In this document: positions 3,255 through 25,157 of the stretch, in pieces | How positions within the stretch are numbered: the first letter of the stretch is position 1 | How the letters are laid out: every line of letters starts with the position of its first letter | DNA from: an uncultured Bacteroidales bacterium | GTDB taxonomy: Bacteria > Bacteroidota > Bacteroidia > Bacteroidales > UBA932 | Length of the DNA: 63,390 nt | Reading direction: 5' to 3' | NCBI GenBank assembly: GCA_944322585.1 | Contig: CALUPB010000015.1 | Location: forward strand, 1-63,390 | Notes under the pieces: model-generated | What the model was told of the DNA's origin: nothing | Database searches by the model: none | The model's input: the letters and a program-made list of their open reading frames with translations, nothing else | Made by a program: the position numbers and the translations under genes

Positions 3255-3399
3255 GAAACTGTTTTAATTTATCGAGCCCGGAGTTCGGAATGAGTGATTT
3301 CGACAAATATATCCGGCAAGTCTTCCCGGACCGTCAAGCGAATGACCCCTTCTCTGATAGAGCGTGGCTTGCTGGAACGGGAAAAGGAACGGGAAATGG

Positions 3400-4490
3400 G
3401 TTGTCAAAAATATAGATTCGGATCGCTGAATTCCCATTTATGAGACAAGGTTCCGCGGACATCCGGTGCACCAGGACATGAAGCTTTTGTCGACTTGGCT
3501 GTTCGACAGTTGATTGTACCTGAATTTCAGGTGTAATGCAGTTATGCACATTTGGGAATGAAGTTTTTGCTGAATTGGCTGTACTACAGTTGATTATGTC
3601 TGAGTGCGAATCCCAAGTTAAATGAGATTGTAAAGTGCGAAGATGTAAGGGATGAGTGCTGCCACCTGATTGCGTTTGAGTGTGAATTCCCGGGTAACGC
3701 AATTAAGCACACCTGGAAATGACCATTCGTTTTAGTTGGCTGACGTATAATTGGTTATGTTAAAATGTGCATTCCAGGTGTAACACAATTGCGCACACCT
3801 GGAATGCTCGGAGTGCACCGCACGGCTCCCTGACCCGGATTCCTCCTTCCTGGTGTGCCATGAACTGTGACACCTGGAACTGACCAATCTTTGTAATCCG
3901 CAACAATTCACGCAATTATGTCTATTGCTTAATTCCAGGTGTGCATCAATCTGTGAGCAACTTCCAGAAGAGGAACACTACCATACTATAGCAGTATAAT
4001 GGGATGGGTGTGCCAGGTCTGTCAAAATCATGCAGACCTGGAACGGTGACCTGCCTTGGAGTGGCCTCTGACGGGGATGGATGTTCCCGGTCTGTCAAAG
4101 TCGTGCAGACCTGGAACGGTGATCGGCCTTGGAGCTGCCTCCAGCATGGGTAGGTGTGCCAGGTCTGTCAAAATCATGCAGACCTGGAACGGTGACCTGC
4201 CTTGGAGTGGCCTCTGACGGGGATGGATGTTCCCGGTCTGTCAAAGTCGCGCAGACCTGGAACGGTGGTATGCCTTGGAGTGGCTTCTAACAGGTACGGG
4301 TGTGCCAGGTCTGTCAGAACCGTGCAGACCTGGAACGGTGGTATGCCTTGGAGTGGCTTCTAACAGGTACGGGTGTGCCAGGTTTGTCGGAAACGCGTAG
4401 ACCTGGAACGGTGGTATGCCTTGGAGTGGTCTCTGACGGGGATGGGTGTGCCAAGTCTGTCGAAATCATACAGACCTGGAACGCTGGGAT
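3400..4490. repeat. Two-phase tandem array of hairpin-forming repeats
   Basis: From about 4003 to 4490 there are seven units with an exact 73-bp period (the GGT of CCAGGTCTG falls at 4016, 4089, 4162, 4235, 4308 and 4381; its diverged AGT at 4454). Each holds an inverted repeat CCAGGTCTG / CAGACCTGG with an 11-nt loop. Units 1-2 and 3-4 form a near-identical 146-bp dimer. Upstream, from about 3400 to 3970, older units of roughly 75-87 bp keep a related hairpin. The best is at 3773-3807, with arms ATTCCAGGTGT / ACACCTGGAAT. The period is not a multiple of three and no credible gene lies here. Confidence 0.9.
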
Positions 4491-4611
4491 GAAGGATACT
4501 GTCCTTTAATAGGGATAAGAGACTGCGGGGATTGCGCAGTGAAGATGCCGCTTGATAAAGGGAAAACCGGATACGGAATCATGCATGTCCGTGCATGAAT
4601 GCAACCATGTC

Positions 4612-4640
4612 TTGGGAACCGGGAAGTTTTGCTATCTTTG
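4612..4640 (+). promoter_or_regulatory. Promoter for the GH88 gene
   Basis: TTG at 4612-4614 and TATCTTTG at 4633-4640, 18 bp apart, end 21 bp before the ATG at 4662. This matches the -33/-7 pattern of Bacteroidota sigma factor. It lies just downstream of the repeat array. Confidence 0.65.
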
Positions 4641-4661
4641 CAGAAACAAAATTGATTTGAA

Positions 4662-5879: not shown

Positions 5880-8786
5880 ATGAGAAGTATGATGTTTATG
5901 GCGGTCTTTACCGCTGCGTGTTATATGTCTGCGGTGTCTCTGTCCGGTGCCGTGGCGGGAGATTACCGGCTCTGTGCCGGATCCGGAGAGCGGATTTCAG
6001 GTGAGCCTGCCTGTTTCGGGGATGGATCGGGGACGGAGACAGGCAATGCCTGGGAATCGACTTTCGGAGCGGCTGCCAATGGCGATAACCTGACTCCCGA
6101 GGTGGTTGCCGGGACCGAGGAATGGATTTCAGGTATGCCTGCCCGTACCGTGGATGGATCGTTAACGGAGACAGCTGATGCCGGGAAAACGGAGACCGGA
6201 GCGGCTGTTGATGCCGGGAAAACGGAGACCGGAGCGGCTGTTGATGCCGGGAAAACGGACTCCGGGATGTCTGTCAATGCCGGGGAAACAATTACGGTGA
6301 CGGACGGCAGTACAGAAGCATCCACCGCAGTCAGTGCTGAAGACGTTCCGGACAAAGTCGTCATAACGGGTGCGGACAGTCTCAGGGCGGCAGAACTCGT
6401 CTCGAAGATGACTCTTGAGGAGAAGATAGATTATATCGCAGGGGTGAAATCATTCATCCTGCGTCCGGTAGAGCGTCTCGGAATTCCTGAAATCCGGCTT
6501 GCCGACGGTCCTCAGGGCATAAGGAACAATACGAAAAGCACCCTCTATCCTTGCGGGATACTTGCCGCCGCGACATGGAACAGGACTCTTGCAGAAAGGT
6601 TCGGCCACGGACTCGGACAGGATGCCCGGGCCAGGGGAGTACACATTCTGCTCGGGCCGGGGGTGAACATCTACCGCGCTCCGATGTGCGGAAGGAATTA
6701 CGAGTACATGGGTGAAGACCCGTACCTGACTTCCGAGACGGCAAAGCATTACATCCTCGGTGTCCAGGAGGAAGGCGTGATGGCAGTAGTGAAGCATTTC
6801 GCTGCGAACAACCAACTGGAATACATGCGTCACAGCGCCAGTTCGGATGTGGACGAACGTACGCTGAATGAAATCTATTTCCCGGCATTCCGCAAGGCCG
6901 TGCAGGAAGCAGGAGCCGGTTCCGTGATGGACGCATACAATCTTCTGTGGGGACAGCACTGCACGGAGAATCCGTATCTGAATATAGAGGTGCTCCGCAA
7001 CAGGTGGGGATTCAAGGGGATAGTCATGTCCGACTGGACTTCCGTATATTCGTCTTCCGGGGCGGCCAATGCCGGACTCGATCTCGAATGCCCTGTGGGC
7101 GTGTATTTTACAAGGGACAGACTCTTGCCTCTTATAGAGAACGGCGTAGTAAGCGAAAGGACGATAGACGAGAAGGTGCAGCATCTGCTCCAGACTTTCA
7201 GCGCATTCGGTTTTCTCGACAGAACGCAGAAGGATACGACGATTGCTCTCGACAATGCGGCATCACGGCAGACGGCCCTTGACATAGCCCGAGAAGGCAT
7301 AGTCCTTCTGAAGAATGAGGATGGCAACCTGCCGGTCGGGAAACGGGACAGGATACTGGTGATGGGACCCAACGCCGATGTGATAACCACCGGTGGCGGC
7401 AGCGGTTTCGTTACCCCGTATTCCACCGTGTCGGTCTATCGGGGGCTCTCGGCCGTGCATGGCGGTTCTAAGGTGTCTCTGCTTTCTGACGGGGAGCTTT
7501 ATCGGGACATTCTCGAAGAGGTTTTCACAGACAGGACATATTCCAGCGGAGGCTTCAGGGCGGACTATTACTGCAATGTCAGACCGGAAGGAGATGTTTT
7601 CAGGACAGTGACTGAGACGGATCCTTCGCATTCATGGGGGTATTCCGGCCCGTTCGAAGGCATGCCGGAGGACAAGTTCTCGGTGCGCTGGAGCGGAGTC
7701 TACAGGGCTGACAGGGACGGCATCGTCAGGGTGCAGATGGCCGGTGATGACGGTTACAGACTGTTTGTGAACGGAAAGAATACAGGCGGGGACTGGGGGA
7801 ACCATTCCCTCAGTAACAGGGCGGTATTCTTCGATGTGAAGGCCGGGATGGAATATGAACTCGTTTTCGAGTTCTTCGACAATGCAGGTGAGGCCAAGGT
7901 AGTGTTCGATATGGGTATAATGGATGAAACGGTGTTGGAGAAGGCCCTGTCAGAGGCGTCGGAAGTCGTATTCTGCGCGGGATTCAACAGCAGTACGGAA
8001 GGAGAAGGCTGGGAGCGGACATTTGCCTTGCCGAAAGACCAGACAGACCTTATTTCAAGGGTGACTTCCCTGCATGACCGTGTCACTGTGGTCCTGAATG
8101 CCGGAGGAGGAGTTGATTTCAGCGGCTGGTCGGACGAAGTGGAGTCCGTGCTTATGGCCTGGTATCCAGGTCAGGAGGGCGGAACTGCCGTTGCCGAGAT
8201 ACTTACCGGAAGGATCTCTCCGAGCGGCAGGCTTCCGATATCCATCGAAAAGACATGGGAAGACAATCCCGTACATGACAGCTATTACGCAAACAAGGCC
8301 AAAAGGGTGACTTATACGGAAGGGGTGTTCGTCGGTTACAGAGGCTATGACCGGAGACTCGATGCGGAAGAAGTGTGGAGGACAGGGAAATCTCTCGACA
8401 AGGGACTTGCATATCCGTTCGGTTACGGACTTTCCTACACTACGTTCGAATATGGCGGACTTTCCGTTAGGAAACTCGGAGAGAACATGGTCGAGGTAAG
8501 TTTCGATGTGACCAATACCGGCAGGATGGAGGCTTCCGAGACAGCCCAGATTTATGTGGGCGATGTGGAGGCTTCCGTCCCGAGACCGCTGAAAGAACTG
8601 AAAGGGTATGAAAAAATCCGGCTCGAACCGGGACAGACCGGACATGTCACTGTAGTCCTGGACGGGGAGGCATTCTCGTTTTTCGATGTGAATTCCGGAA
8701 AATTCATCGTCGAACCCGGACTCTTCAGGATATATGTCGGCCCTTCATCGGCTGATCTTCCTCTCAGGACTGAAATAATGCTGTGA
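5880..8786 (+). CDS. Glycoside hydrolase family 3 with PA14 insert
   Basis: A 968-residue secreted GH3 beta-glycosidase. The start follows the GH88 stop by 12 bp and gives a signal-like N-terminus. Residues 27-155 are unusual low-complexity sequence rich in Gly, Thr, Glu and Ala, including three 11-residue repeats of the type DAGKTETGAAV at 100-132. The catalytic domain begins near residue 165, with RLADGPQGIRN, GPGVNIYRAP, YMGEDPY, KHFAANNQ and the nucleophile Asp385 in MSDWTS. A PA14 domain (about 555-695) is inserted in the second GH3 domain, as in PA14-containing beta-glucosidases. Candidate acid/base Glu residues lie at 707-712. A fibronectin-III-like domain ends the protein. Confidence 0.85.
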   Translation: MRSMMFMAVFTAACYMSAVSLSGAVAGDYRLCAGSGERISGEPACFGDGSGTETGNAWESTFGAAANGDNLTPEVVAGTEEWISGMPARTVDGSLTETADAGKTETGAAVDAGKTETGAAVDAGKTDSGMSVNAGETITVTDGSTEASTAVSAEDVPDKVVITGADSLRAAELVSKMTLEEKIDYIAGVKSFILRPVERLGIPEIRLADGPQGIRNNTKSTLYPCGILAAATWNRTLAERFGHGLGQDARARGVHILLGPGVNIYRAPMCGRNYEYMGEDPYLTSETAKHYILGVQEEGVMAVVKHFAANNQLEYMRHSASSDVDERTLNEIYFPAFRKAVQEAGAGSVMDAYNLLWGQHCTENPYLNIEVLRNRWGFKGIVMSDWTSVYSSSGAANAGLDLECPVGVYFTRDRLLPLIENGVVSERTIDEKVQHLLQTFSAFGFLDRTQKDTTIALDNAASRQTALDIAREGIVLLKNEDGNLPVGKRDRILVMGPNADVITTGGGSGFVTPYSTVSVYRGLSAVHGGSKVSLLSDGELYRDILEEVFTDRTYSSGGFRADYYCNVRPEGDVFRTVTETDPSHSWGYSGPFEGMPEDKFSVRWSGVYRADRDGIVRVQMAGDDGYRLFVNGKNTGGDWGNHSLSNRAVFFDVKAGMEYELVFEFFDNAGEAKVVFDMGIMDETVLEKALSEASEVVFCAGFNSSTEGEGWERTFALPKDQTDLISRVTSLHDRVTVVLNAGGGVDFSGWSDEVESVLMAWYPGQEGGTAVAEILTGRISPSGRLPISIEKTWEDNPVHDSYYANKAKRVTYTEGVFVGYRGYDRRLDAEEVWRTGKSLDKGLAYPFGYGLSYTTFEYGGLSVRKLGENMVEVSFDVTNTGRMEASETAQIYVGDVEASVPRPLKELKGYEKIRLEPGQTGHVTVVLDGEAFSFFDVNSGKFIVEPGLFRIYVGPSSADLPLRTEIML
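6177..6275 (+). repeat. Three 33-bp tandem repeats inside the GH3 gene
   Basis: Units at 6177-6209, 6210-6242 and 6243-6275. The first two are identical in protein (DAGKTETGAAV); the third is DAGKTDSGMSV and is followed by a weaker fourth. The unit length keeps the reading frame. Confidence 0.8.
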
Positions 8787-24998: not shown

Positions 24999-25010
24999 GT
25001 CGGAATTTTC

Positions 25011-25157
25011 ATATATACTGTATTACCTCGGCAATTGCAAGTAAACTTGCATTGCACTCGGCTTCTGCGATATTTGTCCTGTCGGACATATATACTGTTT
25101 ACGCCTCGGCAATCACAATTAAACTTGCATTGCACTCGGCTTCTGCGTATATTTGCG
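25011..25157 (+). repeat. Tandem duplicate of a promoter module
   Basis: Two direct copies of about 70 bp start at ATATATACTG (25011 and 25088) and share CCTCGGCAAT, AACTTGCATTGCACTCGG and CTTCTGCG. The second ends in a perfect TATATTTG; the first has lost one base there (GATATTTG). A third partial copy is at 52-86. Confidence 0.85.
25125..25155 (+). promoter_or_regulatory. Promoter of the HAD hydrolase gene
   Basis: TTG at 25125-25127 and TATATTTG at 25148-25155, 20 bp apart, ending 14 bp before the ATG at 25170. Confidence 0.6.

Follow-up and report, generated by a model that had tools for sequence, protein, structure and literature searches.

What is a tandem array of hairpins with an exact 73-bp pitch doing between two genes of an uncultured Bacteroidales bacterium, and what might have built it? 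The array lies in a stretch of 63,390 nt that was analysed as a whole (the window), where it and a set of upstream hairpins occupy the gap 3255–4661 between two plus-strand genes, which we take to be GH3-like (upstream) and GH88-like (downstream). The observation of this array in an initial annotation of the DNA is confirmed, and the interpretation offered there is partly supported.

Two hairpin families in one intergenic gap

Tandem Repeats Finder calls a repeat at 4001–4483 with a period of 73, 6.6 copies, 82% matches, and 0% indels, which bears out the seven units of exact 73-bp period, with hairpins at 4010+73n, that had been described. These units, designated family A, all point one way without alternation. 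The exact arms CCAGGTCTG/CAGACCTGG are present in units 1, 3, and 5, and the arms of units 2, 4, 6, and 7 differ from them by one or two changes. The pattern CCAGGT-N(4-30)-ACCTGG occurs five times in the window, as compared with a mean of 0.08 and a maximum of 1 in 100 shuffled versions. The proposal that units 1-2 and 3-4 are near-identical dimers holds for the first members, wherein units 1 and 3 show complete identity over 73 bp, but fails for units 2 and 4, which are only 81% identical. Because the entire unit repeats, inter-hairpin sequence included, instead of being interrupted by unique spacers, CRISPR is rejected, as the initial annotation had correctly held. The integron attC candidate was dropped on inspection alone. 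Tandem Repeats Finder also reports a 33-bp repeat at 6176–6259 (2.5 perfect copies), within an ORF that is presumably a second GH3-like one, and a 78-bp repeat at 25010–25155 (1.9 copies, 90% matches).

The upstream hairpins had been viewed as decayed units of the same kind. They are indeed related, with a spacing of 75 to 87 bp, but they constitute a separate dispersed family, called family B. Its two hairpins are mutually inverted copies, and in the window a half-hairpin lies 86 to 87 bp to either side of the hairpin pair. Three family B copies elsewhere in the genome (C2:82659, C2:248489, and C3:64252) are 87 to 89% identical over 268 bp, and more diverged copies are located at C3:69073, at C3:70504, and in the window.

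Table 1. Array, hairpin, and gene features of the window with the evidence defining each
Feature	Position	Strand	Evidence
Family A tandem array, seven hairpin units, 73-bp pitch	4001..4490	+	Tandem Repeats Finder, unit alignment, own-genome BLAST
Family A hairpin, unit 1	4010..4044	+	Single-strand DNA fold −10.1 kcal/mol, z −4.99
Family A hairpins, units 2–7	Starts 4083, 4156, 4229, 4302, 4375, 4448	+	
Family B left half-hairpin (ACACCTGGAAA)	3709..3719	+	Aligned to five other family B copies
Family B hairpin 1, 13-bp perfect arms	3769..3807	+	Inverted repeat I6; fold of 3770–3806, z −5.15
Family B hairpin 2, 75 bp from hairpin 1 (starts 3772, 3847)	3847..3880	+	Alignment of family B copies
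Family B right half-hairpin (AATTCCAGGTGT)	3930..3942	+	Alignment of family B copies
Truncated family A unit near contig end	63319..63371	-	BLAST, E 5e-5
Upstream gene, 1046 aa	114..3254	+	ORF list
Downstream gene, 401 aa	4662..5867	+	ORF list; matches in 18/41 genomes, own included

One explanation for hairpins in such a gap is that they are transcribed, either as an array of RNA hairpins or as an mRNA stabiliser between the two genes. Although the bordering genes share a strand and single-strand folding of the hairpin is predicted (DNA parameters only), the stems themselves argue against this. Among 58 collected family A hairpins, 41 are distinct; the covariation set comprises hairpins near the consensus, and its 492 pair cells include 438 Watson–Crick, 4 G-T, and 50 mismatched states with no double (compensatory) change. 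At pair 3 the commonest state is a G.A mismatch, with 26 of the 41 mismatched at this position. RNA covariation within family A was not found, and the idea that kept pairing reflects selection on structure is unsupported for this family. The replacement of inner by outer pairs pointed out for units 2 and 4 is literally present (G.A becomes T-A at pair 3, and pair 6 is lost) but is not compensatory covariation. Moreover, Rfam matches in the window are limited to three tRNAs, with none to the array, and the genes that border other family A copies vary in their relative orientation. No evidence for the transcribed RNA array suggested initially was found in these searches, and we consider this explanation very improbable.

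Dispersed copies and transposase genes in the same genome

The genome from which the window derives (2.87 Mb, 33 contigs) was searched by BLAST with the window array, yielding 21 family A places that merge to 18. Half of these are no more than 50 bp from the end of a contig (C2, C10, C12, C15, C16, C18, C23, C26, and C33), and the window too ends in such a copy. Because nine places sit at contig ends, the copy numbers are probably lower bounds, and for the same reason such arrays may break other assemblies. Ten of the 18 are outside any ORF of 100 amino acids, and seven are found only within ORFs lacking a Pfam match, which are probably chance ORFs. One place, C18:46-81, is a small piece that overlaps the last residues of a FecCD-domain ORF (L054:2-1231), and this ORF runs off the contig.

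No match to the family A array was found by BLAST in 60 relatives. The copies looked for in related genomes are therefore lacking for the 73-bp DNA itself, but many exist in its own genome, and throughout the genus related genes have hairpin arrays of different sequence in their flanks. Viral contigs contained no instance of the hairpin pattern and one RAYT relative, at 28% identity. No insertion or excision of the repeats was seen; the relatives are too distant to provide an empty site, and the best match of the downstream gene in another genome is 56% identical.

Could the array be a neutral minisatellite, that is, a hairpin-prone unit expanded by local slippage, with the transposase neighbourhood described below being incidental? 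Local growth is evident, not only in the identity of units 1 and 3 but also in the fact that family A units are more alike within a locus (78.7% identity) than between loci (70.6%), with the nearest unit belonging to the same locus for 37 of 52 units. Neutral expansion would also be consistent with the lack of compensatory changes and with the occurrence of other tandem repeats (33 and 78 bp) in the window. The dispersal of family A over 18 places nevertheless argues against it, as does the abundance of the hairpin-class pattern in the genome (44 forward and 35 reverse, versus 0 and 0 in the reversed control).

Three Y1 HUH genes, encoding proteins of 291 to 339 amino acids, are present in this genome: TnpA-1 (C2), TnpA-2 (C1), and TnpA-3 (C3). 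The 3′ end of TnpA-1 is separated from family A by 51 bp, and a second stretch of this family is located 1.3 kb beyond the start of the gene, past one other gene. TnpA-3 is bracketed by two family B hairpin pairs, at distances of 205 and 244 bp. The flanks of TnpA-2 (locus L060) contain neither family A nor family B and exhibit no left-right match. For all three proteins, the best NCBIfam match is the REP-associated tyrosine transposase NF047646, at 31 to 34 bits and thus under the cut-off of 80. Among 32 aligned proteins, NF047646 (REP_Tyr_transpos) matches all 32 (E up to 0.1) and Y1_Tnp matches 28 (E up to 0.5); HTH_23 matches two, the likeness to an HTH being weak. Of seven PDB matches, the first six are to transposases, including TnpA_REP (4er8), but at E values of 0.26 to 1.1.

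Related genes and array pitch across the genus

A profile built from the three proteins finds a relative in 128 of 151 genomes of the genus, own genome included. Across 295 genomes of the order, 22 yield a match at E 1e-15; full-length matches occur only in the own genome and in one other of the same genus, and the other 20 cover the N-terminal core alone. With 100 further loci and those from genomes G175, G176, and G177 added, the collection totals 143 loci, in 142 of which the gene was located. The HUH pattern is found in 132 of the 142 proteins, and Y...N[PCSG] in 126. Many of the genus proteins have NC or NS where the known class 2 Y motif has NP, with YVQMNC present in 15 of the 126. Beyond the Y motif the match extends for 170 to 201 residues. 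The W[QE] motif occurs in 2 of 126 proteins, and any W at the corresponding stretch in 35. A GT[AG]G foot accompanies one of the seven window units and, in the 52-bp class, 5 of 66 arrays, as compared with 9.0 expected.

The left and right flanks of these genes match one another at 22 of 30 loci, versus 13 of 150 mismatched pairs, a result that again speaks against a minisatellite whose genetic neighbours are incidental; eight of the 30 loci had no flank match. Many flank matches are hairpin repeats, some of them tandem, and some are longer direct repeats. A stricter finder detects at least two alike hairpins in 13 of the 30 loci (17 without) and in 58 of 102 loci, and self-BLAST reports a significant short-range repeat in 30 of 102 gene loci versus 2 of 15 array-free window pieces. 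In G029, the gene closest to TnpA-3 (59% identity) adjoins a hairpin that shares the inner sequence of family B and has a different outer stem.

Several individual loci and genomes merit description. Long tandem arrays stand on both sides of the gene at L086, L120, L228, and other RAYT loci, and at L120 a 73-bp array spans ~850 bp in one flank and ~800 bp in the opposite one. In G077, contigs C15, C16, C18, C21, and C47 have CAGGTGG hairpins at 52-bp spacing, and these arrays do not match the repeats next to the single RAYT-like gene detected in that genome. Hairpins with CCAGGTCTG are present in G175, yet they do not border any of the five RAYT loci fetched from it, two of which are one gene. 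The CAGGT pattern is not in excess in G176 (27 versus 36 in the control).

Within 600 bp of the gene, 124 arrays from 77 loci were found, and 83 of them, from 55 loci, repeat at 50 to 54 bp with hairpins that differ. Adding two arrays of the own genome (126 in all) gives 6 at 73, 7 at 84 to 85, and 30 scattered between 40 and 124; a hairpin pair occurs at the lag in 54 of the 126. A pitch of 50 to 54 bp common to arrays of differing sequence is a further point against the neutral minisatellite, an explanation that we regard as unlikely.

Pitch classes also cluster on the tree of the transposases. In a FastTree phylogeny of 144 proteins, 70 of them labelled, the division between 52-bp and longer pitch takes six changes, whereas shuffled labels take 14.6 on average and 10 at the lowest (none of 1000 shuffles reaching six). 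A careful tree of 36 hand-chosen rows of the 144 places TnpA-1 in a 100/98 clade of eight, comprising five rows at 73 bp (TnpA-1 among them), one at 84 bp, which is the sister of TnpA-1, and two unlabelled rows. On this tree the 52 class takes three changes (0 of 500 shuffles as low) and the 84 class also three (8 of 500). The 73 class by itself is not significantly clustered, because 41 of 500 shuffles are as low as its five changes (shuffled mean 6.5). Shared descent of the locus could explain part of the link between pitch and tree.

In sum, repeats lie beside the genes, most relatives have the HUH and Y motifs, copies are dispersed, and pitch classes cluster on the gene tree. Because the dispersed repeats adjoin genes and pitch clusters on their tree, we read the locus as a REP/BIME-like array belonging to an unusual RAYT-like clade. 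Specifically, the window array is probably (at roughly 0.7) a copy of a dispersed REP/BIME-like family whose cognate enzyme is most likely TnpA-1, a RAYT-like HUH Y1 protein, with family B belonging to TnpA-3. Counting against this reading are the scores of the own proteins under the NF047646 cut-off, the flanks of TnpA-2, the loci lacking a flank match or a pair of alike hairpins, and the hairpin families of G077 and G175 for which no matching transposase was found among the loci retrieved.

Pitches of 52, 73, and 84 bp are close to 5, 7, and 8 helical turns, and the step from 73 to 84 is about one turn. Two sister pairs differ by 11 bp (TnpA-1/L092 and L083/L127), with the 73-bp array of L083 located 487 bp from its gene and having no hairpin pair at that lag. 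For 11 hairpin-backed arrays outside 50 to 54 bp, which are not all independent and include two of the own genome, R(10.45) is 0.68 (Monte Carlo p 0.004 versus uniform lags); the best-fitting period, however, is 11.5, and pitches of 70, 75, and 76 fall outside the series. Among the lags that no pair of hairpins matches in spacing are 58, 61, 66, 67, 77, 78, and 81. Whole-helical-turn spacing of the arrays is thus suggestive.

A shared pitch is also what one might see if the arrays were a platform used by the host to bind gyrase, a nucleoid protein, or a regulator, with the RAYT-like protein domesticated for platform use rather than repeat spreading. BIMEs have been reported to bind IHF and gyrase (PMC2817692), and linkers of the 52-bp class contain paired A-tracts in 34 of 80 arrays versus 4.0 expected, with starts 10 to 11 bp apart in 22 of the 34. 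This excess is rough, because the search pattern limits the distance between tracts, the arrays are non-independent repeats, often the two sides of one locus, and the null is a plain shuffle of two-base steps. The family A units of the window, judged by eye, have no such A-tract pair, and host use of the arrays is putative; we give such a platform little weight. The linkers of the 52-bp class often read A-tract, four G/C bases, A-tract, an arrangement that could bend DNA.

If TnpA-1 and its relatives are indeed the cognate enzymes, the HUH core may recognise the hairpin as a single strand or in extruded form, and the enzyme would move or seed hairpin copies. Arrays could then be lengthened by local unequal exchange or slippage, and their pitch might be held by the geometry of the enzyme on double-stranded DNA, perhaps via its extended C-terminal part. 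An extension of this reading, which we put forward tentatively and consider somewhat doubtful, is that a RAYT-like clade, apparently genus-restricted and having an extended C-terminus, builds or maintains arrays in which a whole-turn pitch, rather than a sequence, is conserved; sister genes would step by one turn, and the protein would bind same-face double-stranded arrays in addition to single-stranded hairpins. It is weighted lower because of the L083 array and the unclustered 73-bp class.

Comparison with known REP, REPIN, and RAYT systems

A conserved array pitch beside such genes appeared in no title or abstract of our literature search, which left most subscription journals outside its reach. 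In the portions of three reports on REP/BIME and RAYT systems (REPtrons) used here, short hairpins are dispersed in extragenic DNA and a Y1 HUH gene is flanked by its own repeat family (PMC2817692, PMC6006769, and PMC8266576). The initial suggestion of a BIME-like element pointed in the right direction, in that a dispersed REP-like family adjoins a RAYT-like gene. Family A resembles REP/BIME elements in being made of short, dispersed hairpins, 17 of 18 in gaps or Pfam-less ORFs, but it is a one-way tandem rather than an alternating array, and its GT[AG]G foot is unenriched. Likewise, the proteins resemble RAYTs in their HUH and Y motifs, and own repeats flank 22 of 30 loci as well as TnpA-1 and TnpA-3, but not TnpA-2. 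They differ in that the match continues for 170 to 201 residues beyond the Y motif and, for the own proteins, in scoring under the NF047646 cut-off. Such a clade bears on the questions of how REP families are spread and what keeps RAYTs in genomes.

A parallel in layout is provided by the REPINs of Pseudomonas fluorescens SBW25, which are described as hairpin doublets with fixed spacings of 71 and 110 bp that cluster beside RAYT genes (PMC3116915). Family B is comparable as an inverted hairpin pair 75 bp apart with three copies 87 to 89% identical over 268 bp, a likeness of layout. In contrast to SBW25, the pitch here is shared across species and the sequence differs. A clade wherein spacing appears to outlive sequence offers a direct experimental handle on pitch.

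Among the TnpA_Y1 subclasses, as delineated in the sections of the classification drawn on here, subclass 2.1 (TIRYT) comprises long proteins with a C-terminal HTH-like addition (PMC6006769 and PMC3733652), and no adjoining REP-like sequence was found for its genes (PMC6006769). The proteins studied here are also long with a C-terminal addition, but repeats flank 22 of 30 of their genes and HTH_23 matches only 2 of 32. Subclass 2.6 (RAYT group 5) is mostly from Bacteroidetes, and the same sections ascribe to it atypical flanking structures without GT[AG]G that are copied elsewhere in the genome and, in tabulated form, a length of 179 amino acids and the motif YIH[QN]NP (PMC6006769). The host group and the dispersed flanking hairpins, whose GT[AG]G foot is unenriched, agree with this subclass, whereas the own proteins have 291 to 339 amino acids and their kin mostly YV[LQ][RM]N[PCS], a comparison made by description. 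Finally, the W[QE] motif, which these sections tie to GTAG recognition in subclasses 2.2, 2.4, 2.5, and 2.7 (PMC6006769), is nearly absent here (2 of 126). These comparisons suggest that RAYT-repeat coupling extends to long Y1 proteins without the known guide motif.
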